Positions 8,733 through 30,785 of a stretch of 64,000 nt of DNA are shown here, piece by piece. The stretch covers positions 1-64,000 of the forward strand of contig JAGLDS010000006.1 in NCBI GenBank assembly GCA_023145435.1, in the 5' to 3' direction. Positions within the stretch are counted from its first letter, which is position 1, and every line of letters starts with the position of its first letter. The position numbers and the translations under genes are program-made. The notes under the pieces were generated by a model. The model was not told the origin of the DNA. It saw only the letters and a program-made list of their open reading frames with translations, and searched no databases. The DNA is from Clostridiales bacterium (GTDB lineage: Bacteria > Bacillota > Clostridia > DUPQ01).

Positions 8733-10703
8733 TTAATATACCACAGTGACATCATATGCTTCAAGATGTATTTTGATATTTTTAGGTTTACTCAAAGTAA
8801 TGGTTATTGGAAAGTCGTTATGATTTAGTACAAAGGTAGCTTCTTGATTATCACTCCTTCGATAAATTGTCTCAACGCCATCTACTGGAGTAACAACATG
8901 TTGAATAATAGACAAGTCACTAATTACTGTTTTAAGTATTTTTTCATAAATAGGAGTTGTAACATGGCAGCCAACATAATAGACTGAACCTTCACCAAAA
9001 ATATTTTTAGTAATACAAGGTGTGTTTTTATAAAATTCACTATCATAACTTGCTAAAACTTCACTTTCTTTAGGATCAATAATATCTGCCCATAAGGTAG
9101 CTGTAGTGTCACCGGTAATTCCTTTAATCTTAATTTGTTCCTGTCCAAGAGCATCATAGTTTATAACATCAATACCAGCCATTTCTCTGAAATAACCAGG
9201 TAATGTTAATCCGTTAATTTTATTATATTCATCTCTATTTCCAGATCTAAAGGTTAAAACAACACATCCTCCATTTTTAACATATTCTTGGATTTTTTTA
9301 ACTTCGCTTTCATTTGTAATATTATATGCTGGTAAAATAATTAACTTATATTTATTTAAATCAACTGATAAATCAACCACATCACAATTAATATGCATAT
9401 TGGTTAATGCAACATGAATAGATGAAAGAATTTGATTATAATCAAATGAAGGTGAGTGCCATTGATAATCGTGTGCCCAAACATTATCAAATGAACGAAC
9501 AATGCATACCTCAGAGAGTACCTCTGTGTTATCAATTATATCTTCAAGTTCCATAAATTCTTGGCATGTTTTTTTAATTATTTTATAGCGGTCCCTAGGA
9601 ACTCCGTCATGATCTAATACACCATGCCAATACTGTTCGGTACCAAACAAGCAAGTTCTCCACCTAAAATGAACAATACCGTTGGCACCATGTGCCACTG
9701 CTTGATAATCCCATAAACGTATTTGTGCTGGGTTTGGAGTACGTCCCATGAAGTTCCAACCACCTTGTGCACTACACATTTCCATAATCCAGAAGGGTTG
9801 ATTCTTATATCCTCTCATTTTATCATGGTGATATGATACTTCTTCAATACTATCAAAAGGTCCGTGAATAATGTTTGGATAACAGTCCCATGTTATAAAG
9901 TCATATAGTTTTGCATGTTTATAATAATCAATATCATAAAAACGCGACATGAAATTATGAGTAATTGGTACTTTTACTCCATTGCTTTTTAATGTATCAA
10001 TTTGTAATTTAGCGTAATTATCAACTGATTGTGAAGAAAAACGACAATATTCAAGCCACAAACCAGGGTTATGTGCATACATATCTCCTTGTTTATAATC
10101 ACATGCTGTGTGTTTTGGTATAATTAAACTGTCAAAGGAGTAATACGTTTGGCTCCAAAAGTCCATACCTAATTCGCTATTTAATTGTTCAATAGATTCA
10201 TATTTGTTTTCAAGATAAGAAATAAATTCTTTATGACAGTCATCGCAATAACACTTAACTGTATTATGACAACCAAATTCATTATCTAACTGCCAAGTAA
10301 TAACATATGGATTGTCATGGTATCTTTTAGCCATCTTACTAACAATTTTTTTAGTATAATCTTGATAAATTGAGCTATTAAAGCAATAATGACGTCGACT
10401 ACCGTAACCTCTTATATTATTATATTCATCTTCTTGATAAATTTCTGGGTGTTTATCCATTAACCATTTAGGAGGGGTAGCTGTTGGGGTACATAAAATT
10501 GTTTTAATATTAGCTTGCCCTAGCATATCTATAATGGTATCTAACCATGAAAAATCATAATGATTTTCAGATGGTTCCATTTTGGTCCAAGCAAATTCCG
10601 CAAGACGTACAACTGTGAAATTAGCTTCTTTCATTAACTTAACATCTTTTGACCATCTCTCTTCAGGCCAGTGTTCTGGGTAATAATCTACTCCAAAGTG
10701 CAT
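8733..10703 (-). CDS. GH42 family beta-galactosidase
   Basis: MHFGVDYYPEHWPEERW, TWQLDNEFGCH (acid/base) and FWIMEMCSAQGGWNFMGR (nucleophile region) motifs. Confidence 0.93.
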   Translation of the reverse strand: MHFGVDYYPEHWPEERWSKDVKLMKEANFTVVRLAEFAWTKMEPSENHYDFSWLDTIIDMLGQANIKTILCTPTATPPKWLMDKHPEIYQEDEYNNIRGYGSRRHYCFNSSIYQDYTKKIVSKMAKRYHDNPYVITWQLDNEFGCHNTVKCYCDDCHKEFISYLENKYESIEQLNSELGMDFWSQTYYSFDSLIIPKHTACDYKQGDMYAHNPGLWLEYCRFSSQSVDNYAKLQIDTLKSNGVKVPITHNFMSRFYDIDYYKHAKLYDFITWDCYPNIIHGPFDSIEEVSYHHDKMRGYKNQPFWIMEMCSAQGGWNFMGRTPNPAQIRLWDYQAVAHGANGIVHFRWRTCLFGTEQYWHGVLDHDGVPRDRYKIIKKTCQEFMELEDIIDNTEVLSEVCIVRSFDNVWAHDYQWHSPSFDYNQILSSIHVALTNMHINCDVVDLSVDLNKYKLIILPAYNITNESEVKKIQEYVKNGGCVVLTFRSGNRDEYNKINGLTLPGYFREMAGIDVINYDALGQEQIKIKGITGDTTATLWADIIDPKESEVLASYDSEFYKNTPCITKNIFGEGSVYYVGCHVTTPIYEKILKTVISDLSIIQHVVTPVDGVETIYRRSDNQEATFVLNHNDFPITITLSKPKNIKIHLEAYDVTVVY

Positions 10704-16653: not shown

Positions 16654-19131
16654 ATGTCAGAAAATACCCAAGAAAATGTTAGAAGAGTTATTCCCATTGA
16701 AATAGAAGAAGAGATAAAAAAATCATTTATTGAATATGCTATGTCTGTTATTGCAGACAGAGCATTACCAGATGTCAGAGATGGATTAAAACCTGTTCAT
16801 AGGCGTATTTTATATGCAATGATGATATTAGGATTTCTACCTGAAAAGAGTTATCGTAAATGTGCTTCCACTGTTGGTGAAGTATTAGCTAAATTTCATC
16901 CTCATGGTGATCAATCTGTATATGATGCTCTAGTCCGATTGGCACAAGATTTTTCACTACGCTATCCACTAGTTGATGGTCATGGAAACTTTGGTTCAAG
17001 GGATGGTGATTCAGCAGCGGCTATGAGATATACAGAAGCTAGATTAGCTAAAATTTCATCAGAAATGTTACATGAAATAAATAAAGACACAGTTGATTTT
17101 AGATCAAACTTTGATGATCATGAAATGGAACCAACTGTACTACCTTCACGGTTTCCTAATTTATTAGCAAATGGCTCATCTGGAATTGCTGTTGGTATGG
17201 CTACAAATATTCCACCCCACAATTTAACAGAGCTAATTGATGGCATTTATGCACTAATTGATGATCGCGAAATAACAATTGAAGGATTAATGGAATATAT
17301 CAAAGGACCTGATTTTCCAACATATGGAACTATTATTGGTAGAAGTGGTATCAAACAAGCCTATATGACTGGTAGAGGGCGAATAGTGGTTCGTGGTGTA
17401 GTAGAAGTTGATGAACTTGGAAATAAGACTAGATTGATTGTGAAGTCGCTACCTTATCAAGTAAATAAAGCTAGATTAATTGAAAAAATTGCTCAACTAG
17501 TTAAAGATAAAAAAATTGACGGAATTTCTGGAATTAATGACGAATCTGACAGAAATGAAGATGTGAGAATTGTAATCGTTTTAAAAAGAGATGCTAATGT
17601 TAATGTTGTTTTAAATAGATTGTACAAACACACACAAATTCAAGATGCTTTTAATGCAAATATGTTAGCCTTAATACCTACAGAAAACAAAGGGTATGAA
17701 CCTAGAATTCTCAATTTGAAACAAGCGTTAGTTCATTATGTTGATTACCAACAAGAAATAATAAGAAGACGTACTAAATTTGATCTTGATAAGTCAGAAG
17801 CAAGAGCTCATATTTTAGAAGGACTTATTAAAGCTGTTGATATTCTAGATGAGATTATTGCTACCATTAGAAAATCAAAAAATGAGCCAGAAGCAAAAAA
17901 ACATCTTGTTGAAAACTTTGAATTTTCAGACAGACAAGCACAAGCAATTGTAGACATGAGACTAGGTCGTTTAACTGGACTTGCAATTTTAGAATTACAA
18001 AAAGATTATAACGATGTTAATAAGAAAATTGTTTACTATAAATCTATTTTATTAAATGAAGATATTGTTAATGGTATTATTAAAGATGAATTGGCAGTTA
18101 TTAAGAAAAAATTTGGCGATGATAGACGAACAGAAATAACGCACGATGAGTCAGATTTTGAAGATGAAGATTTAATTGAAGAACAAACTGTGGTCATTAC
18201 TAGAACTCAATTTGGTTATGTAAAAAGGCTACCAGTTGACACATATAAAAGCCAGAGAAGAGGAGGCAGAGGAATCACTGGTCTTAGTACTAGAGAAGAA
18301 GATTATGTAGTAGATTTATTTACAACTACTACTCATACTAATTTGCTGTTTTTCTCCAATAAAGGAAAAGTATATAAAATAAAAGGATATCAAATTCCAG
18401 AAGCAGGTCGTACAGCTAAGGGAATGGCTATTGTTAATTTATTACAATTAGACGGAGATGAAAAAATAAATACTGTTATTCCTGTTAAAGAATTTGAAGA
18501 TGGACAATTCCTATTTATGGCTACTAAAAATGGTGTTGTTAAAAAAACACCACTAACTGATTTCTTACATATTAGAAAATGTGGAATTATTGCTGTTACC
18601 CTACGTGAAGATGATCAGTTAATTGAAGTTTCACTAACAGATGGTACAACAAATATCATGTTAGCAACGTATAAAGGAATGGCTATTCGTTTTAAAGAAA
18701 GTGATGCTAGATCCATGGGACGAAATGCACAAGGTGTTATGGGTATCAGATTAGATGCAGATGACTATGTGGTTTCCATGGAAGTTGTAACAGATGATCA
18801 AACAATTTTATCAGTCACTGAAAATGGATTTGGTAAGCGAACATTTGTTGACGAATATCCTGTTCAAAAACGTGGTGGAAAAGGAGTATTAACTTATAGA
18901 GTAACTGATAGAACAGGAAATATGATTGGAACAAAAATAGTTACAGATAATGACGATTTGATTATGATTTCAATTAAAGGAATTATTATTAGAATTAGGT
19001 CATCAGAAATCAGTATTCTTGGAAGAGCAACTCAAGGAGTAACGTTAATGAGAATTGAAGAGGATAATAAAGTAGTGTCCATTGCTAGAATCGTTAATGA
19101 AGACACAGAAGAATTTACAGAGGAAAGCTAA
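16654..19131 (+). CDS. gyrA: DNA gyrase subunit A
   Basis: [32 protein letters not shown]; active-site [12 protein letters not shown]-terminal beta-pinwheel repeats with QRRGGRG GyrA box. Confidence 0.95.
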
Positions 19132-19150
19132 TAAGCTTTCCTTTTCTTTA
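19122..19150 (+). terminator. Rho-independent terminator overlapping the gyrA stop codon
   Basis: GGAAAGCT-aata-AGCTTTCC followed by TTTTCTTTA; gyrA TAA is 19129-19131. Confidence 0.75.
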
Positions 19151-19156
19151 CATTAA

Positions 19157-19184
19157 GTTAGTTAAGTATTACAATACAACTAAC
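19157..19184. promoter_or_regulatory. Inverted repeat (candidate operator or hairpin) in the nadABC leader
   Basis: GTTAGTT-aa-GTATT-ac-AATAC-AACTAAC located 17 bp before the nadA ATG. Confidence 0.5.
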
Positions 19185-19201
19185 CTAAAAAGGTGGTTTT
19201 T

Positions 19202-20119
19202 ATGAAAAAATATAACTTATTACAAGAACAGATATTACAACTAAAAAAAGAAAAAAATGCTGTCATTGTTGCACATACTTATCAATCAAAAGAAATTCAA
19301 GAAATTGCTGACCTTGTGGGAGATTCTTTACAATTAAGTCAATTTTGTGCAAATGATTCATCACAGTTAATTGTCTTTTGTGGTGTTCATTTTATGGCAG
19401 AAAGTGCAAAGATTTTATCTCCTTTAAAAACAGTTTTATTACCTGATATTCATGCTGGATGTCCCATGGCAGATATGGTAACAGCTAGTGATTTAATAGA
19501 ATTTAAAAAGGATTACCCTGAGGCTAAAGTTGTTTGCTATATTAATTCAACAGCAAAGGTAAAAGCGATAAGCGATATTTGTTGTACATCATCAAATGCT
19601 GTTGATATTGTAAAGAGTTTAAAGGCTAAACAAGTAATTTTTGTACCTGATCAGAATTTAGGAAGATATGTGTCTACATTTGTTAGAGAAACAGAATTTA
19701 TTATGTGGAATGGATTTTGTAGTGTTCATAATAATTTAAAAGCATCTGATATTCTTAAATTAAAAGAAACATATCCATCAGCCTTAGTTGCTATGCATCC
19801 TGAATGCCAAGAAGAACCCATAAAATTAGCGGATTTTGTAGGTAGTACTAAAGCTATAATTGATTATGTATTAGAGCAAGAACATGATGAATTTATCATT
19901 GCAACTGAGCAAGGGATTATTGATAGAATTAATATGTTAGATCCTTCAAAAAAACTTCACTTGGCGGGTAAATGTTTGCTTTGTAAAAACATGAAAAAAA
20001 TCACGTTAGAAAAAGTAAAAGCAGCTTTAGAAGAGAATATATATAAAGTTGAAATGGATGAAAATATTATGAATCAAGCTAGAGGAAGTCTAGTACGAAT
20101 GTTAGAGGCATCAAGATGA
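19202..20119 (+). CDS. nadA: Quinolinate synthase A
   Basis: VIVAHTYQSKEIQEIADLVGDSLQLS; VFCGVHFMAESAKIL; LPDIHAGCPMADM. Confidence 0.95.
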   Translation: MKKYNLLQEQILQLKKEKNAVIVAHTYQSKEIQEIADLVGDSLQLSQFCANDSSQLIVFCGVHFMAESAKILSPLKTVLLPDIHAGCPMADMVTASDLIEFKKDYPEAKVVCYINSTAKVKAISDICCTSSNAVDIVKSLKAKQVIFVPDQNLGRYVSTFVRETEFIMWNGFCSVHNNLKASDILKLKETYPSALVAMHPECQEEPIKLADFVGSTKAIIDYVLEQEHDEFIIATEQGIIDRINMLDPSKKLHLAGKCLLCKNMKKITLEKVKAALEENIYKVEMDENIMNQARGSLVRMLEASR

Positions 20120-21714
20120 AAAGATACCTTGTTGGTGTAGATAAAAATACAGAAACCATTGAAACCGATGTGTTAATAATTGGGAGTGGAATTGCTGGAA
20201 CGTATACGGCTCTTTGTATAAGCGAGAACATAAAAGTGACCATACTTGCAAAGGAGGCTATTGATGTTAGTAATACAGCTTTAGCACAAGGAGGCATAGC
20301 TGTTTCTTTAGGGGATGGAGATTCTCCTACTTATCACCATAATGATACATTATTTGCAGGTGCTGGTTTATCTGATGATGATATGGTCTGGTTACTAGTA
20401 AACGAAGCAAAAGATAATATTAAAAATCTTTGTGATCTAGGAGTTAAATTTGATATGTCAGATGGAATGCTTGATTTAACAAAAGAAGCTGCACATTCAA
20501 AAAGAAGAATTATACATGCAAAAGATTTCACAGGAAAAGAAGTGTGTGATAAATTATTAGCGAGTTCAAAAAAAAGAAATAATATTACATTACATGAAAA
20601 TATGTTTGCAATTGATATTATTACAGAAAATCAAACATATAAAGCAACAATTATTCTTGATCAAAAAACTGGGAAAAAGAAAATATATAAAAGTAAATAT
20701 GTGGTGTGTGCTTCAGGAGGATTTGGTCAATTATATCAAATCACTTCAAATCCAATTATTGCCACAGGAGATGGTATGGCAATGGCCTACCGTGCAGGGG
20801 CCACTTTACAAGATATGGAATTCGTACAATTTCATCCCACAGTTTTATTTCACAAAAAAGATAAAAGTTTTTTAATTTCAGAAGCCGTACGTGGTGAAGG
20901 TGCAGTACTTAGAAACAGTTTCGGCGAACAATTTATGAGCAACTATGATGAACTAAAAGAATTAGCACCAAGAGATATTGTTGCCAGAGCTATTTTTAGT
21001 GAAATGGGAAAAACACAATCAGATTGTGTTTATCTAGATATAACATTTAAGAGTAGAAAATATTTAAGTGAACGATTCCCTAAAATATTTAATACTTGCT
21101 TGAAGTATGGAATTGATATTTCAAAAGATTATATCCCAGTTGCGCCTGCAGAGCATTATTGCATGGGTGGCATAAAAACAGACTTAACAGGAAAGACAGA
21201 GATAGATAGATTATATGCTTGTGGCGAAGTGTCGTGCACAGGTATCCATGGTGCAAATCGTTTAGCTAGTAACTCTTTACTAGAGGGTTTAGTTTTTGGA
21301 AAAAGAATTGCTAATGATATTTCGATGAATCATTTACGTGTACATATTGATAAAAAAAATTATCTAATTAGTGAATCAGGAGAAACTTATTCACAACCCG
21401 TATCTGAAATAGAAAAGCGTATTAAAAAAACCATGAATCAGAATGTAGGTATTGTTAGGGATGAAAAGGGACTAAAAACTGCAAAAAAAATTATGGATGA
21501 AACTTTAGATATTCTTAATTTATATAAGTACAATTCCATGGCTCAGATACAAACAGCTAATATGGCTATAATTGGTGAAATCGTAATTTCTTCAGCACTT
21601 GCTAGAAAAGAAAGTAGAGGGGCTCACTTTAGAACTGATTATCCAAACACTTTGGATTCTTTCAAAAAACATATTACAAAGAAAAGAGAGGAAAGTAATG
21701 ATGAAACTTTCTAA
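20116..21714 (+). CDS. nadB: L-aspartate oxidase
   Basis: Rossmann VLIIGSGIAGTYTAL; HRPAPAEHY-type YIPVAPAEHYCMGGIKTD; CGEVSCTGIHGANRLASNSLLEG. Confidence 0.95.
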   Translation: MKRYLVGVDKNTETIETDVLIIGSGIAGTYTALCISENIKVTILAKEAIDVSNTALAQGGIAVSLGDGDSPTYHHNDTLFAGAGLSDDDMVWLLVNEAKDNIKNLCDLGVKFDMSDGMLDLTKEAAHSKRRIIHAKDFTGKEVCDKLLASSKKRNNITLHENMFAIDIITENQTYKATIILDQKTGKKKIYKSKYVVCASGGFGQLYQITSNPIIATGDGMAMAYRAGATLQDMEFVQFHPTVLFHKKDKSFLISEAVRGEGAVLRNSFGEQFMSNYDELKELAPRDIVARAIFSEMGKTQSDCVYLDITFKSRKYLSERFPKIFNTCLKYGIDISKDYIPVAPAEHYCMGGIKTDLTGKTEIDRLYACGEVSCTGIHGANRLASNSLLEGLVFGKRIANDISMNHLRVHIDKKNYLISESGETYSQPVSEIEKRIKKTMNQNVGIVRDEKGLKTAKKIMDETLDILNLYKYNSMAQIQTANMAIIGEIVISSALARKESRGAHFRTDYPNTLDSFKKHITKKREESNDETF

Positions 21715-22534
21715 TTTAGCTATTGATACAATTATTTTAAATGCATTACAAGAAGATATGCCTTATGGGGATATATCAACTGATAGTTTGTTTTCAAAAA
21801 TTGAGCAAAGTGAAGGTAAGTTGATTGCAAAACAAGATGGTGTTCTTGCTGGGCTAATGGTTTTTCAAAGAGTATTTTTATTAATTGATGACATGGTAAA
21901 ATTTAAATTTAATTTTAGTGATGGTGATTATGTTAAAAAAAGTGATGTGATTTTAAATATTAGTGGAGCCACTGCTAGTATATTAAAAGGTGAGAGAGTT
22001 GCACTAAATTTATTACAACGAATGTGTGGTATTGCCACTAAAACAAATAGGCTTGTTAAAGCAATTAATAATAAAAACATAAGATTAGTTGATACTAGAA
22101 AAACTACACCTAATTTACGTATTCTTGAAAAATATGCTGTTACTATGGGTGGTGGATATAACCATCGCTTTTCACTATCAGATGCTGTTATGTTAAAAGA
22201 CAATCATATTAAAGCTGTAGGTAGTATTAAAAAAGCAGTTAAGATTGTAAGAGAAAAAATTCCTCATACAATGACCATTGAAGTTGAAGCTGAAAATTTA
22301 AAACAAGTAAAAGAAGCAATTTTGGCAAAAGCGGATATTATTATGCTTGATAATATGGATGTTGAAACAATGGAAAAAGCCATAGCATTAATTAATAAAA
22401 AAGCACTTGTGGAAATTTCAGGAAATATTGATATTTATAGTATTTCTAAGAAAACTTTACCAGGTGTCGATATAATTTCATCTGGAGCAATTACCCACTC
22501 AATTGAAGCTATGGATATAAGCTTAAAATTCTAA
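21698..22534 (+). CDS. nadC: Nicotinate-nucleotide pyrophosphorylase (carboxylating)
   Basis: EDMPYGDISTDSLF; GERVALNLLQRMCGIAT; DTRKTTPNLRILEKYAVTMGGGYNHRFSLSDAVMLKDNH. Confidence 0.95.
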   Translation: MMKLSNLAIDTIILNALQEDMPYGDISTDSLFSKIEQSEGKLIAKQDGVLAGLMVFQRVFLLIDDMVKFKFNFSDGDYVKKSDVILNISGATASILKGERVALNLLQRMCGIATKTNRLVKAINNKNIRLVDTRKTTPNLRILEKYAVTMGGGYNHRFSLSDAVMLKDNHIKAVGSIKKAVKIVREKIPHTMTIEVEAENLKQVKEAILAKADIIMLDNMDVETMEKAIALINKKALVEISGNIDIYSISKKTLPGVDIISSGAITHSIEAMDISLKF

Positions 22535-22535
22535 G

Positions 22536-22795
22536 TTATCAACAGAATATAAGGGTTGTCCACAATTGCAGTAAAAAGTTAACAATATTTTAAAAAGATA
22601 TCCACAGAAAAACCAAGAAAAATTAAATAGAAAATAAAAAACCACAAAGAAGCCGGGTTTTAGTGGCTTTTTTGCCATAAAAGTTATCAACAGGGAGATA
22701 TCAACAACTGTGGAAAGAATTTTATAAAAAAACTAAAAAATCCCATTAAATAGGGCATTTCACGGTTATCCACAGAAAAACACTACTTTTCCACA
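22536..22795. promoter_or_regulatory. Cluster of DnaA-box-like 9-mers
   Basis: TTATCAACA 22536, TTGTCCACA 22556, ATATCCACA 22598, TTATCAACA 22684, ATATCAACA 22698, TTATCCACA 22766 (consensus match), TTTTCCACA 22787; also a weaker reverse site TGTGGAAAG at 22709. Confidence 0.65.
22646..22673 (+). terminator. Probable terminator downstream of nadC
   Basis: AAGAAGCC...GGCTTTTT with T-run (one G-T pair). Confidence 0.5.
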
Positions 22796-22971: not shown

Positions 22972-25932
22972 ATGAAATCAGTAAAAAGAATTCTTTCGTC
23001 AATTCTGGTTATTACCATGCTATTAGTCATGGTTTCTTTACCAGTTAGTGCGGCTATTTCATCTCAAGCAGACACTGTTAGAATATTAGGTGTTCTAAAG
23101 GGTGATAGCGCAGCAGGTGTAACGGAAGAATATTTGGCAAAAAATACAAATAGATCTCAGGGTGCTAGAATATTACTAAGACTTATGGGATTAGAAACAG
23201 AAGCAGATGCATTTACAGGTAGCGCTACATTTAGCGACGCATCTAATGCATCAAGTTATTGGCAACACATGTTAGCTTATTTAAAAGCAAATCCAGAAGT
23301 TGGTTTCCAAGGATATCCAGATGGAACTTTTAAACCTCTTAAAGTTATGACAGCTCAAGAAATATATAAAGTGTTGTTAACTTCTTTAGGATACGTACAA
23401 GACGTAGACTATACATGGGATGAAGTTTTTACATTCGCTGCTGAAAAAGGATTAACTGCATTATATGGTACAGAAGAAATAACAAATGATGATTTAGCAA
23501 CCGCATTAGTTGAAGCATTAAATGCAACTAAAAAAGACGGTATGAGATTAATCAACTTCTTAGTACAAGAAGGTGTTGTTACTTCTACCAAAGCCGCTGA
23601 AGCTGGCTTCTTAACCATTACAGAACTTGTTTATGAAGAAACTTACCTATGTATCTATAATGGAACACCTGATTGGCCTAGTACATTAGAAGCAACTTTT
23701 GCTGATGAAACAACAGGTTCAGTTAACGTTGTTTGGTCTTCAATTGATTCAAGTGTAGTTGGTTTCCATGGTGCTACTGGTACTGTTGAAGGATATGGAA
23801 CGATTTCAGTAATCGTTGAAGTATTCCCTGAAACATTAACAGTAATGGATGCTTTCCCATCAGATGCTGATGAAATTACTGTATTAGTAAATCAACCAGT
23901 ACCTATTGGAACTACTATTACTCTTAAAAGAGGATTAGTTGGTTTAGGAACTACTGTTACTTATTCAGAAAACAGAAAATCATTTACTTTTACTCAAACA
24001 TGGAATTTCACACCTGGTGAATATACTGTAAATGTTGGAGGAAGTGAAAAAACATTTACTATTGAAGCAGAGAGAGCTGAAGGATTATACATCGATGCAG
24101 ATTATATCTATCCATTAGCTAATCAAGATTTACAAATTCATTTAGTTAACCAATATGGAATGGCTATGAATTTAACAAATGTACAAATTACTATTTCAAA
24201 TATTACTAAAGGAATTCAAGTTCCATACACAATTACTGGTGAAACAGCAATTGCTAATGGTTCTGATCCCTCAAAAGTAGAAGCCGGAGATCAATTAATG
24301 ATTTTTGTACTTCATAATACTAGTATGTTGACAGCAACAAAACAGGTAGTCGTATATGACGAACCAAGCATTCAAGCTTTACAGTTTGGAACATTAGAAA
24401 TTGCTGATAACAAATCAACAATCGTAGAATACACAACAGGACATAAAATTGAAGTATATGCAATTGATCAATATGGTAATCCATTAATGTTAACCAACGC
24501 TGACATTCAGCCTGGTGGACTAATTCAAGTTTACAGTACTTCAGAAACTATTATTAACCCAGCAAGCATTATTATAAACGGCGAAGGCGACTTAGTCTTT
24601 AATGCAGAAGCACCAGGAATTGTTACATTGCACTTAATTGTTCCAACAAAAGGAATTATTGCGCAACAGACATTAACTGTTTATGCTTCATCAGCTATTG
24701 ACAATTTTATTATTGCCGGTGCAACTGGAAGAGTTACAGCTGGAACAACTGCTGACTTAATTTCTCAAGCATATGACCAATATGGTACACCTCTTTCATT
24801 ACTTGGTAACTTTGAAGTAAGCAAATTAGTTGTTTCATCATCTAATCCAAGTGTAGTACCAAACAATGGTATTATCTATGATGCAGGAACTGGTACATTA
24901 CAAGTTATGGCAGGAATTGCAGGAACTGCACAAGTTTTCTACAGTTATGATGGTTCAACTACACAGTCATTCTCAGTTACTGTAGATGAAGCTCCAAGAC
25001 CAGTTACTCTTGTGTCATCTAACATACCTTCATACTTCCAAGTAGGAGCAATCTATGCTGCCACTGATGCTAATTTAGTTATAAAAGACCAGTATGGTGA
25101 GGCTATTGATTTAGAGGGAACAGGATATACTGTATCTATAGAATTTGTAAACGGAACAGGTACTTATATGTCTTCATCTCCAGCAAGTTTTGATGGAACA
25201 AATACTGTAACATTTACAGCATCAAGTACTGCAGGAACAGCTAATGTTCAATTATCACTACTTAATTCATCAATGACATCTGTTAGTGTTATTCAACCAA
25301 ATGTATATGTTCTTAATGCTAGTGAAATTACTAACTACACCTTAAGTGATGCACCAATCTTATATGGTGCCCCAGGAACAGCTGGAACTGACTATGAAGT
25401 AACATTAGAGATTCAAGGAAAAACAAGCACAGGTCAAACTGTTATATTAGAAGGCTCAGGTGCAGTTCCATCAGGAATTATTATGGTAACAAATTCTAAC
25501 AGCGCTGACTTTACATTGAATAATACTACATTAGAATTGTCCGCACAGGCAGCTGGAACAACGACTATTAAGATCTTCTCAGTATATGGTGAAGAAGATG
25601 CTATCACTGTAACAGCAGTAAGCGATTTACCAGAAGTCACTATATTCGCTTGGAATGCAAGTGAAGACTTTGAAATTAATGAAGGTCAAACAGCAGTTGC
25701 TTTATTAGAAGGTGACGTTGTTGTTAAAGATCAGTATGGTGTTGTGATTGATTTAACATCAGGTTCTTGGTATACATCAATTCCTGCAGCAATTAGTATT
25801 GCTACACAATCAACTAATAAGTCACCAACTGTTACTATTGGTACTGTTACCACAGACACAGCAGTATCTATTTCATACATTACAACAGATGGTAAAGTAT
25901 TAACACATACCTTCACAGTTGTAGATGACTAA
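22972..25932 (+). CDS. Secreted S-layer-homology / bacterial Ig-like repeat surface protein
   Basis: Signal peptide MKSVKRILSSILVITMLLVMVSLPVSAA; SLH-like segment GFQGYPDGTFKPLKVMTAQEIYKVLLTSLGY; multiple ~105-aa Ig-like modules with a recurring DQYG motif. Confidence 0.8.
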   Translation: MKSVKRILSSILVITMLLVMVSLPVSAAISSQADTVRILGVLKGDSAAGVTEEYLAKNTNRSQGARILLRLMGLETEADAFTGSATFSDASNASSYWQHMLAYLKANPEVGFQGYPDGTFKPLKVMTAQEIYKVLLTSLGYVQDVDYTWDEVFTFAAEKGLTALYGTEEITNDDLATALVEALNATKKDGMRLINFLVQEGVVTSTKAAEAGFLTITELVYEETYLCIYNGTPDWPSTLEATFADETTGSVNVVWSSIDSSVVGFHGATGTVEGYGTISVIVEVFPETLTVMDAFPSDADEITVLVNQPVPIGTTITLKRGLVGLGTTVTYSENRKSFTFTQTWNFTPGEYTVNVGGSEKTFTIEAERAEGLYIDADYIYPLANQDLQIHLVNQYGMAMNLTNVQITISNITKGIQVPYTITGETAIANGSDPSKVEAGDQLMIFVLHNTSMLTATKQVVVYDEPSIQALQFGTLEIADNKSTIVEYTTGHKIEVYAIDQYGNPLMLTNADIQPGGLIQVYSTSETIINPASIIINGEGDLVFNAEAPGIVTLHLIVPTKGIIAQQTLTVYASSAIDNFIIAGATGRVTAGTTADLISQAYDQYGTPLSLLGNFEVSKLVVSSSNPSVVPNNGIIYDAGTGTLQVMAGIAGTAQVFYSYDGSTTQSFSVTVDEAPRPVTLVSSNIPSYFQVGAIYAATDANLVIKDQYGEAIDLEGTGYTVSIEFVNGTGTYMSSSPASFDGTNTVTFTASSTAGTANVQLSLLNSSMTSVSVIQPNVYVLNASEITNYTLSDAPILYGAPGTAGTDYEVTLEIQGKTSTGQTVILEGSGAVPSGIIMVTNSNSADFTLNNTTLELSAQAAGTTTIKIFSVYGEEDAITVTAVSDLPEVTIFAWNASEDFEINEGQTAVALLEGDVVVKDQYGVVIDLTSGSWYTSIPAAISIATQSTNKSPTVTIGTVTTDTAVSISYITTDGKVLTHTFTVVDD

Positions 25933-26070: not shown

Positions 26071-27174
26071 TTGTTAAAGAAAATTACCAGTATAGTTTTA
26101 ATATTTTTACTAATAAGCTTACCATTAATGGCAAAAGCTTCATCCTTTAATGAATTACAAGTTGAGTACCTATCTAATAGTGAGCAATTACAATCACTTA
26201 AAGAACAATTAAATGATCAAATTGATAATTATGTAGATGATTATTATAGGTATGTTAAGATGAGTAGTAGAAGTAATCTTTCATATAATCTTGCATATTT
26301 AATGATTAATAAAATTACAGGTAAATTAAATGTTGATTGGAATATAGAAAGAACTAAAGAACAATTATTAACGACTACTAGTTCCCTTGAAATAACATTT
26401 AGAAATTTATATTTTTCTCTATACTCGTTTCATAAAAATGTAAACAGCATGCAAGATAAGTATGATAAACAAGTAGTTGCTTATGCTAATTCACAATTGT
26501 TGTTTTCACAAGGTTATATTAATCAATCTTCTCTTAGAGTAGCAAGATACACCTTAGAAACCGCAAAAGTATCTTTAAATAGTAGTAAGCGAAATTATGA
26601 GAATGCTCTATTTTCTTTTAATATAGCAATGAAACAATCAATTAACTTTTCTGATTATTCTTGGGATATAGAAGAAACTCTTTTACCCGTTTTAAAGCTT
26701 AGTGAGTATCTTGATAGTTTTATTACGTATTCAAAAGTTATCATTGAATATGATAGACAACTTTATAAAGATGAAATTAAGGTTGATTATCTTGATGGAT
26801 ATAATGTTAATGTAACAACAAATAGTGGTTCAATAGATTATAAGCAAACGATGATTACAATGGAGCTAAATCAATTATATAAAGAAACATTCATAACCTC
26901 ACAATCTAAGGAGATAAGACAATTGTTTTTCAATTTATCTCAAGAACATGACACAATTAATAATTACAAAACAAAAATTAATATTTATTATCAAGAAATG
27001 CTAGATAATAAAGCATTTGCTGAAAAAGGATATATTGACCAAGAAGAATATCAAGAATATGTAGAATGTTATGAAGCATCTCTTGTTACCTATATAGAAA
27101 AGATGTACACATACAATACACATGTATTGCAACTTGAAAATATTGCTTGCACTTATATGAAGGAGACTTTTTAA
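26071..27174 (+). CDS. Secreted TolC-like (outer-membrane-efflux-protein-like) coiled-coil protein
   Basis: TTG start after GGGGG SD; signal peptide; SQLLFSQGYINQSSLRVARYTLETAKVSLNSSKRNYENALFSFNIAM resembles the TolC/OEP helical repeat. Confidence 0.55.
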   Translation: MLKKITSIVLIFLLISLPLMAKASSFNELQVEYLSNSEQLQSLKEQLNDQIDNYVDDYYRYVKMSSRSNLSYNLAYLMINKITGKLNVDWNIERTKEQLLTTTSSLEITFRNLYFSLYSFHKNVNSMQDKYDKQVVAYANSQLLFSQGYINQSSLRVARYTLETAKVSLNSSKRNYENALFSFNIAMKQSINFSDYSWDIEETLLPVLKLSEYLDSFITYSKVIIEYDRQLYKDEIKVDYLDGYNVNVTTNSGSIDYKQTMITMELNQLYKETFITSQSKEIRQLFFNLSQEHDTINNYKTKINIYYQEMLDNKAFAEKGYIDQEEYQEYVECYEASLVTYIEKMYTYNTHVLQLENIACTYMKETF

Positions 27175-27176
27175 TC

Positions 27177-28229
27177 ATGAAGAAAAAAATTATTTTATTA
27201 GTGATCATAGCGCTGTTAATCAGCGGAGGTGTTTTAGGAGTTGAAGTAATAAAAATTTCAATTGAACAAGCTAATACTTTAGCTATTACAAATAATCCAT
27301 ATGTAGCAATTGACGAATTACGATATGATGCTGCTGTTATTTCATATGACGAGGCAAATAGAATAGCTTCAATCACAGAAAAGACAACCTACAAAGGACA
27401 AATTAAAGGGGTTTATACACCATTTAATGAAGAGACTACTTTAACTTTAATAGTAATGAATAATAATAAGAATATTAAAAATATTGAAAAAGACATTCTA
27501 AATGTGAGTTATGATTATTATCTTTTTGAAAGTAGTTTATATTTAGCTAATGAGACTTTTTTAAAGGCTAAAAGTGATTATTTGGAAATATTAGCAACAT
27601 CAGATAGTATAGAACTTGAAAAAATGAATGGAGAATATTTAGTAGAGTCTTCAAGAATTGCCTTAGAAAATGCTGAGAATGAGTTTGCAGCAATTGGCAA
27701 GCGATTAAAAAGTATGTTACCAGACAATAAAATTATTGATATTAATTTAATTGATATAATAAACCCTTATGACCTTACCTATGAAGAAGTATATGAAAGT
27801 GCAATGACAAATCATATTACGTTATATTCGTCTTCGCGTAATATGGAATCAAAAGAAATATATTTTAATATTATTAGTCAATTTTATGGAGAAACTACAG
27901 AAAAACATATTACTGCAAAGGCTAATTATGAACAAGCGTTATTAGATTATAATAAACAATTACTTTCAGTTGAAGTTTCAATTTTACGTGATATAAATAA
28001 TTTAAAAACAAAATATGACTATTTACAATTAGAAAAATTGAATCAACAAATTAAATTAGAAGACTATGAGATAGCTTTGACACAATATGAACAAGGATTT
28101 ATCTCTCTTAATATTCTACAGGGAAAAGAGAAAACCTATAAGGTGGTAGTTTCTTTAGTTTCACAAAAGGAGAAAACCTATATATTAGCATTAAAAGATT
28201 TAGAAATCAGTACAGGATATATTCGTTAA
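27177..28229 (+). CDS. Secreted TolC-like coiled-coil protein
   Basis: Signal peptide; ISIEQANTLAITNNPYV N-terminus and ALTQYEQGFISLNILQGKEKTYKVVVSLVSQKEKTYILALKDLEISTG C-terminus, both OEP-like. Confidence 0.65.
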   Translation: MKKKIILLVIIALLISGGVLGVEVIKISIEQANTLAITNNPYVAIDELRYDAAVISYDEANRIASITEKTTYKGQIKGVYTPFNEETTLTLIVMNNNKNIKNIEKDILNVSYDYYLFESSLYLANETFLKAKSDYLEILATSDSIELEKMNGEYLVESSRIALENAENEFAAIGKRLKSMLPDNKIIDINLIDIINPYDLTYEEVYESAMTNHITLYSSSRNMESKEIYFNIISQFYGETTEKHITAKANYEQALLDYNKQLLSVEVSILRDINNLKTKYDYLQLEKLNQQIKLEDYEIALTQYEQGFISLNILQGKEKTYKVVVSLVSQKEKTYILALKDLEISTGYIR

Positions 28230-28254: not shown

Positions 28255-28304
28255 CGCTTTGTTTTTATGATATAATTATGAGTATAGTAAAGGGAGGTGC
28301 TTAT

Positions 28305-28997
28305 TTGTCTGCTAAAATTTTAATTGTTGATGATGAAAGAAATATTGTTAATATTCTCAAGTTTAATTTGCAAAAAGAGGGATATACCACAATAGAAGCA
28401 TATGATGGACAAGAAGCTATTGAAAAGGGCCTAAATGAACACCCTGATTTAATCCTTTTAGATGTTATGTTACCAATTTATGATGGATTTACTGTTTGTC
28501 GTAAATTACGTGAGAGAATTCAAACACCAATTATCATGCTTACAGCTAAAGAAGAAGAATTAGATAAAGTGCTGGGGCTTGAACTAGGGGCCGATGATTA
28601 TGTAACTAAACCATTTTCTCCAAGAGAATTAATAGCTAGAATAAAATCAAATTTACGTCGAATGAAACCAAAAGATTTAAAAGATTTAAAAGAGAGCATT
28701 ACTATATTTGACTTGCAAATAAACGAAGCAAGGTATGAAGTGTTAAAAAATAATCAACCAATTGAATTATCAAGCAGAGAATTTGAATTATTATCATTTC
28801 TAGTTGAGAATAGAGGAGTTGTCATGAGTCGTGAAAAACTACTAGAATCAATTTGGGATTATAATTATTATGGTGATATGAGAACTGTGGATGTTACAAT
28901 TAGCCGTCTTAGAGATAAATTGTCAACAGATAAAAACAAGTATATTGTAACTAAACGTGGTATTGGATATTTTTTCAGAAAGGATGATAAGGAGTAA
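28305..28997 (+). CDS. walR: OmpR-family response regulator WalR (YycF)
   Basis: ILIVDDERNIVNILKFNLQKEGY, receiver plus winged helix (TVDVTISRLRDKLS, TKRGIGYFF), next to walK-yycH-yycI. TTG start after GGGAGGT; an upstream ATG at 28278 is also in frame. Confidence 0.9.
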   Translation: MSAKILIVDDERNIVNILKFNLQKEGYTTIEAYDGQEAIEKGLNEHPDLILLDVMLPIYDGFTVCRKLRERIQTPIIMLTAKEEELDKVLGLELGADDYVTKPFSPRELIARIKSNLRRMKPKDLKDLKESITIFDLQINEARYEVLKNNQPIELSSREFELLSFLVENRGVVMSREKLLESIWDYNYYGDMRTVDVTISRLRDKLSTDKNKYIVTKRGIGYFFRKDDKE

Positions 28998-30785
28998 GTG
29001 TTTAAAAAGCGATTACAATGGAAATTAGTTATATTTATCTGCTTGATTGCAGTTTGCTTAGTTATACCAATTGGTATATTTTTGAATATTAGCATAGAAA
29101 ATTTTCATTATAATCAATTTATTGAAAATATAGAAAAAGGCTTTGATATTTATGAAATTCAAGAAGGTTCACTAAATATTTCTAATGTATATCAAGATAT
29201 GAGAGATATATATGCTCCTTCATTTGGGATTTATGGAAATAATAAAAGCTATACAATCATAAATCGTAAAAACAATGAAATTTTTTCATCTGACTCATCC
29301 TTTTTGAGTAAAGATGAACAAGTTTTTCTCACAGAACTATATAGTTCGATTAATTTTATTACTGCTGTGTCAGGAGAACATATTAATCATAAGGAATTAA
29401 TAACAATTAATAACAGAGCTTTTTATGATTATGCAGTTGTTAAAGAAAATTTAGTCTTTTATTTCAGGTATTACAAAGAAGATTGGCAGTTAATGGTTTC
29501 TGAATTTAATAATTCAATTATGACAAGCTTATTAATCTCTTTGGTATTTGCCTTTATCATAGGATATTTATTATCAAAATCTATAACTAAACCTATTAAT
29601 GATATTATTGAGAAAACACAAGACATTGCTGAAGGAGAATTTGGTCAACTGCTAGAAAAAGCAGGAAATGATGAAATTGGCCAATTAACTATGTCTATTA
29701 ATGAGATGTCATTAAATCTTAAAAATATGTTAGAGGATATTTTTAATGAAAAAAACAAGATTGATGCTATTTTAACTAATATGACAGACGGAATAATTGC
29801 TTTTGATGTAAATGGAGTTATTACTCATGTTAATCCTGTTTCGCTAAAGCTACTTCATCGTAGGAAAATAAATGAGACAATACAACAGATAATAAAAGAA
29901 TATAAAATTAATATTACATTTGATGAGATTATCAAAAAAACAGATAAAGTAAATAACAGTAATCTAATCATCAACATACACGACACAATATTACATGTAG
30001 CATTTGGAATATTACGAGATAAAAATCATCATCCAGAAGGGATTATAATGATTTTAAGGGATATAACTAAGCAACAAAAACTAGATGAAATGCGAAAAGA
30101 GTTTGTTGCTAATGTGTCACATGAATTAAAAACACCATTGACCTCTATTAAAAGTTATACAGAAACCTTGCTAAATGGTATGGTTGATGATCAAGAAACT
30201 AGAGAGCAATTTTTACAAGTTATTAATAGCGAAACTGATAGAATGTATCGAATTGTAAGAGATCTTCTTCAGCTTTCTGCCATGGATTTAAATCAACTAT
30301 ACTTAAATAGACATTTACATAGTATAAATGAACTAATTATAAAAACCATTGAAAAAGTAGAAGTTGAGGCTAAAGCTAAAAATCACATGATATATACTGA
30401 AATTGAATATGAAGGAAATGCATTTTTTGATTATGATAAAATACAGCAAGTACTAATAAATGTTTTAACAAATGCAATTAAATATTCTGATGAATTTGGG
30501 AAAATTACAGTTAAATCTATTAGAAATAAAGAATATGCTTACATTAGTGTAAAAGACACAGGAATCGGTATTCCAGAAAAGGATTTACCTAGAATATTTG
30601 AGAGATTTTATACAGTTGATAAAGCTCGTTCTAGAAAAATGGGAGGAACTGGATTAGGATTAGCTATTGCCAAAGAAATAATGATTGCTCATAATGGGAA
30701 TATTATTCTTGATAGTAAAAAGAAAAAGGGGACTACTGTTACAATTATAATACCTATAGAAAGGGAGAAAATAAGTGAAGAATAA
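28998..30785 (+). CDS. walK: Sensor histidine kinase WalK (YycG)
   Basis: HAMP, PAS and HisKA (FVANVSHELKTPLTSIKSYTETLLNG), HATPase (GTGLGLAIAKEI); follows walR. GTG start. Confidence 0.9.
   Translation: MFKKRLQWKLVIFICLIAVCLVIPIGIFLNISIENFHYNQFIENIEKGFDIYEIQEGSLNISNVYQDMRDIYAPSFGIYGNNKSYTIINRKNNEIFSSDSSFLSKDEQVFLTELYSSINFITAVSGEHINHKELITINNRAFYDYAVVKENLVFYFRYYKEDWQLMVSEFNNSIMTSLLISLVFAFIIGYLLSKSITKPINDIIEKTQDIAEGEFGQLLEKAGNDEIGQLTMSINEMSLNLKNMLEDIFNEKNKIDAILTNMTDGIIAFDVNGVITHVNPVSLKLLHRRKINETIQQIIKEYKINITFDEIIKKTDKVNNSNLIINIHDTILHVAFGILRDKNHHPEGIIMILRDITKQQKLDEMRKEFVANVSHELKTPLTSIKSYTETLLNGMVDDQETREQFLQVINSETDRMYRIVRDLLQLSAMDLNQLYLNRHLHSINELIIKTIEKVEVEAKAKNHMIYTEIEYEGNAFFDYDKIQQVLINVLTNAIKYSDEFGKITVKSIRNKEYAYISVKDTGIGIPEKDLPRIFERFYTVDKARSRKMGGTGLGLAIAKEIMIAHNGNIILDSKKKKGTTVTIIIPIEREKISEE

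Follow-up and report, generated by a model that had tools for sequence, protein, structure and literature searches.

What is known of DnaA control at sites away from oriC comes mainly from E. coli, with datA and DARS, and from B. subtilis, with DnaA-box clusters that lack a strong single role. Deletion of six extra-oriC clusters in B. subtilis leads to early initiation (PMC5295017, PMC13220808). The E. coli locus datA needs IHF, which is missing from B. subtilis (PMC13220808), and the DnaA-trio of the C. difficile origin is CACCTACTACTATTACTACTATGA (PMC7561715). Our literature search found no paper on the cluster described here, including DnaA boxes and nadC considered together, and nothing on oriC-proximal boxes in Clostridium.

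The window, i.e., the whole 64,000-nucleotide stretch of clostridial DNA that was analysed, carries a DnaA-box cluster at 22536..22795 on the + strand, within the 437-bp gap between nadC and a surface-protein gene. The sequence-only reading had counted about seven DnaA-box-like sites in 260 bp, almost all in the same orientation; seven 9-mers were indeed located, and all seven main boxes lie on the + strand. Box 1 (TTATCAACA, 22536..22544) and box 2 (TTGTCCACA, 22556..22564) read TTATCCACA and TTATACACA, respectively, in the congeners G002 and G003. They are followed by box 3 (ATATCCACA, 22598..22606), box 4 (TTATCAACA, 22684..22692), box 5 (ATATCAACA, 22698..22706), box 6 (TTATCCACA, 22766..22774), which is the exact consensus, and box 7 (TTTTCCACA, 22787..22795), which is invariant in four congeners. 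A degenerate eighth box (CTTTCCACA, 22709..22717) is opposed to these on the - strand and is an exact TTATCCACA in the congener G003. With seven boxes in 260 bp, the locus is a cluster in the B. subtilis sense, i.e., at least three boxes at a mean spacing below 100 bp outside oriC; not every such cluster has to lie near oriC.

The cluster starts 2 bases past the stop codon (22534) of nadC, which encodes quinolinate phosphoribosyltransferase (21701..22534, +; Pfam PF01729 and PF02749, and alignment). Upstream lie gyrA, nadA and nadB (16654..21714, +), identified using Pfam and synteny as the ancestral neighbours of nadC on the oriC side. Within the cluster, RNA folding placed a terminator-like hairpin followed by a T run at 22643..22674 (+, approximate limits); it is kept in G002 and G003, is absent from the output of the consensus scan, and probably marks where the nadABC transcript ends. 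On the other side, the gene at 22972..25932 (+) encodes a secreted, repeat-containing surface protein. Two adjacent proteins at 26071-28229 weakly matched outer-membrane efflux proteins (OEP), in one case below the cut-off; such a pair is odd for a Gram-positive-type clostridium.

How exceptional the cluster appears within its own genome varies with the motif. When TTATNCACA was used with at most one mismatch, six sites fell in 260 bp, the joint-highest count in the 1.44-Mb draft, and approximately 0.04 stretches of this density were expected; when TTWTNCACA was used with at most one mismatch, the count at the cluster was not exceptional. Using nine 9-mers typical of the locus and of oriC, a set picked after the window had been seen, the cluster ranked first in density across the genome (7 vs 0.06 expected). 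The within-genome significance with the plain consensus alone is only moderate. Since the density depends on the motif and the 9-mer set is post hoc, the significance of the cluster rests on the comparison across species, and it was conservation that ruled out a chance origin. Two other groups of sites were seen in the genome. Six more one-mismatch box-like sites at 9863-10098 of the window lie in a coding region and are probably due to chance, and a second box group at G000:C1:140793-140842 (L347) consists of three copies of ATATCCACA and one of TTATTAACA, including the perfect inverted pair TATCCACAATTGTGGATA.

In the congeners G001-G003, the boxes stand at nearly identical offsets from the nadC stop. 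Among the four congeners, 53 of 72 box columns are invariant vs 115 of 251 columns in the rest of the region (Fisher P = 3e-5, calculated on columns that are not independent). Two genomes of another genus (G004 and G006) have four to five boxes at similar spacing, with the same surface-protein gene downstream. At least three boxes within 400 bp after nadC were found in ten families (f1, f7, f12, f13, f15, f16, f26, f50, f71 and f75), and two boxes or fewer in genomes sampled from approximately 27 other families. The class sample was ranked by similarity to the NadC of the cluster-bearing clade, after which 40 more genomes were taken from the remaining list; the relatives compared are mostly drafts, and the data are sequence throughout. 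When mapped on a tree of NadC from 75 genomes, the presence of at least two boxes is explained by only four changes, and shuffling gave far less clustering of the presence classes. Across 80 named loci, the box rate was 0.35 per 400 bp after nadC, a value carried by a few loci such as that of Hungateiclostridiaceae UBA1305, vs 0.055 elsewhere. The cluster was lost in f63, in G285 and in relatives without nadC. In one complete genome (G035:C1, approximately 25.4 kb left of the contig start; L257), an eight-box cluster occurs besides the nadC cluster and oriC.

The gene downstream of the cluster varies by family and encodes a surface protein, a CBS-domain protein, a small acid-soluble spore protein or others, as read from the sequences; therefore, we place the surface-protein gene outside the element. 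A tie between the cluster and the surface protein was rejected, as paralogues and g3 homologues of this protein without nadC have no cluster upstream and in G001 the cluster is still there but is followed by another sequence. On our best reading, the cluster would be an ancient element linked to the 3' side of nadC that originally lay within a few tens of kb of oriC.

The same comparison bears on whether DnaA serves here as a transcription regulator of a neighbour, either of nadABC by read-through or of the downstream gene. DnaA regulates sda, ywlC, vpr and other genes in B. subtilis (PMC4447404), and the window cluster lies upstream of the surface-protein gene, with a likely -35 element (TTGTAT, 22892, by eye) approximately 96 bp past the last box. 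However, the cluster stays while the gene beyond it is exchanged between families, it adjoins the 3' end of nadC and not the nadA promoter, and it does not overlap the surface-protein promoter that was read by eye. We consider a regulatory role of this type unlikely.

The boxes of the window's family are mostly direct repeats. Most clusters outside this family contain an inverted pair A, TGTGGATA-N8to11-TATCCACA, and approximately 100 bp beyond it an inverted pair B, TATCCACA-N3to4-TGTGGATA. In ten whole genomes (1.4-4.9 Mb), pair B occurred once in five, always after nadC, and was absent from four; the window genome has one copy, which is not at nadC. Pair A occurred after nadC, with one additional copy each in G208 and G242. 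The fixed-spacing inverted pairs are almost unique within whole genomes. A further motif, GATGTAATGACGACC, precedes pair A by approximately 20 bp in clusters of many families (L140, L144, G016, G022, G109, G242, G257, G288 and others) and is a possible candidate site of a second protein.

In six complete genomes with the cluster, nadC is 20.5, 21.2, 21.6, 22.8, 40.4 and 74.4 kb from dnaA, whereas in eight complete genomes without it the distance is 0.50-1.48 Mb; the chance of such a split is 1 in 3003 assuming independent genomes, which they are not. In the draft G025, nadC is approximately 30 kb from dnaA on one contig. Leftward from oriC, G131, G208 and G257 carry rnpA, yidC, jag, mnmE, mnmG, rsmG, gyrA, a gap, nadA, nadB, nadC and the cluster, where the gene names beyond gyrA and nadABC were given by position and homology to contig C5 of the window genome. 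The gap between gyrA and nadA has no long conserved ORFs and is probably rRNA, and the nad genes in this ancestral order point away from oriC. In G006, which belongs to a sister genus in the window's family, an 18-kb contig carries yidC, rsmG, gyrA, nadABC, the cluster and the surface protein, which puts the cluster at a distance of about 15 kb from dnaA. The window's genus has the rnf operon ahead of gyrA, and neither the 41 kb left of dnaA on C5 of the window genome nor the 53 kb right of dnaA in G001 contains the cluster; therefore, the gyrA-nadABC-cluster block has moved in this genus. The boxes were kept despite the move. With the block off the oriC arm, either a place near oriC is not a strict requirement or the cluster has lost part of its role.

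Conserved proximity to oriC and fixed box geometry would fit a structured complex, and the cluster could accordingly be imagined to activate initiation, through DARS-like recharging or as an enhancer looping to oriC, with GATGTAATGACGACC beside pair A binding a second factor. However, GATGTAATGACGACC is missing in f1, f26 and f49, and the only Gram-positive precedent that we found, that of B. subtilis, is negative (PMC5295017). Activation is, in our estimate, quite improbable.

The family f49 provides the closest link between the cluster and DnaA itself. In two related species of this family (G079 and G298), the box-recognition signature in domain IV of DnaA is changed from GGRDHTTVxH to NGIHHTSVxG; the residues named in PMC7561715 include D433 and H439 of E. 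coli. The dnaA-dnaN gaps of both species carry TTTCCCACA. Their nadC 3' regions, which lie on the dnaN side at 10 kb from dnaA, contain four copies of TTTCCCACA, arranged as two inverted pairs, whereas TTATCCACA is absent. The boxes of oriC and those of the nadC cluster have thus become TTTCCCACA alike as the DnaA motif changed. In this way, the cluster follows DnaA specificity, and the joint switch, seen in two related species, is strong evidence, the best available from sequence, that DnaA binds at the cluster. In another f49 draft (G238; L369 and L375), the family cut-off is passed by two full-length DnaA proteins that differ in their domain IV signatures, for which contamination (3%) is a possible cause.

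A further possibility is that the repeats serve as terminator stems, or as an RNA element in the nadC 3' UTR, and resemble DnaA boxes by chance. Paired boxes give rise in several families to long stems with a T run behind them (G131, G208 and L149), and the inverted pairs of some relatives may double as terminators. However, if only a stem were needed, the box sequence would not have lasted through ten families or changed in step with the recognition motif of DnaA, as it did in f49. Direct repeats such as those of the window's family cannot pair as stems; the RNA fold here is ordinary (z = -0.69), and the Rfam search gave no family at its cut-off. An RNA element or terminator was therefore rejected for the window, and we regard this explanation as very improbable.

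The window genome (G000) is a draft of 19 contigs and is 69% complete. Its single dnaA over the family cut-off (G000:C5:3347-4642) lies with dnaN on contig C5 in the standard rpmH-dnaA-dnaN arrangement, and the cluster lies on contig C16. The rpmH-dnaA gap contains three copies of TTATCAACA and one of TTTTCCACA, and the dnaA-dnaN gap contains TTTCCACAACACCTACTACTACTACTACTA, which is a box with a DnaA-trio; no trio was found in the nadC gap. GC skew is positive on both sides of the nadC gap, with no sign change at 22.6 kb, where a minimum had been proposed as a mark of an origin. In five complete relatives (G131, G208, G257, G035 and G189), the skew changes sign abruptly at dnaA and retains its left-arm sign across the nadC interval. 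Although the boxes are dense, the gap is AT-rich and gyrA is near, the location of dnaA, the trio on C5 and the skew led us to reject the cluster as the chromosomal replication origin, the probability of which is negligible. The sequence-only reading had considered an origin and a DnaA-titration or DnaA-regulated locus equally likely; the latter is supported as an extra-oriC DnaA locus, and the former fails. Its hint from gyrA was sound, as oriC, rsmG, gyrA, nadABC and the cluster are the ancestral order. The name walRK that it gave to the genes at 28278-30785 is not secure; the response regulator and kinase resemble YycF/WalK, but both fall below the curated YycF and WalK cut-offs.

We favour the reading that the locus is a cluster of DnaA boxes outside oriC and that, like the B. 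subtilis clusters, it keeps DnaA bound and curbs initiation, which we consider reasonably likely. The cluster shares its box vocabulary with the oriC of its own genome (TTATCAACA and TTTTCCACA), and judging from the sequence comparisons, DnaA very probably binds it in vivo. That the cluster has a negative effect on initiation has an even chance or slightly better. Because the cluster is kept by nadC, usually near the origin, in at least ten families, it probably helps to time chromosome copying. DnaA would bind the cluster cooperatively, and the cluster would be copied within approximately a minute of initiation, so that the DnaA-holding sites near the origin would double at once. The doubled sites would lower free or ATP-bound DnaA, and re-initiation would be restrained, similar to the effect of the B. 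subtilis clusters and E. coli datA. If so, the cluster would represent a long-conserved initiation-control site in anaerobic Bacillota that follows the change in the specificity of DnaA itself. A more elaborate and speculative proposal, to which we give only limited credence, is a datA-like element of Clostridia, in which two fixed-spacing inverted pairs and GATGTAATGACGACC for a partner protein are kept at nadC near oriC in many families, set the timing of initiation and co-evolve with DnaA specificity.

Compared with known systems, the nadC cluster has the same box type as the bipartite clostridial origin of C. difficile (oriC1/oriC2). The window genome's own oriC matches that of C. difficile, with the trio CACCTACTACTACTACTACTA vs CACCTACTACTATTACTACTATGA, whereas the nadC cluster has no trio, no identified unwinding element and no adjacent dnaA. 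Similar to E. coli datA, it is a compact multi-box locus outside oriC and would hold or inactivate DnaA; the context differs, and no shared sequence is claimed, and datA itself is defined by an IHF-dependent stimulation of DnaA-ATP hydrolysis. The extra-oriC clusters of B. subtilis likewise consist of several DnaA boxes that lie between genes and away from oriC, and the gcp/ydiF site, like the nadC cluster, adjoins the 3' end of a gene and not a promoter (PMC4447404). However, the clusters described here lie beside other genes than those of B. subtilis, are tied to nadC across ten families near oriC, and mostly have a fixed inverted-pair spacing.
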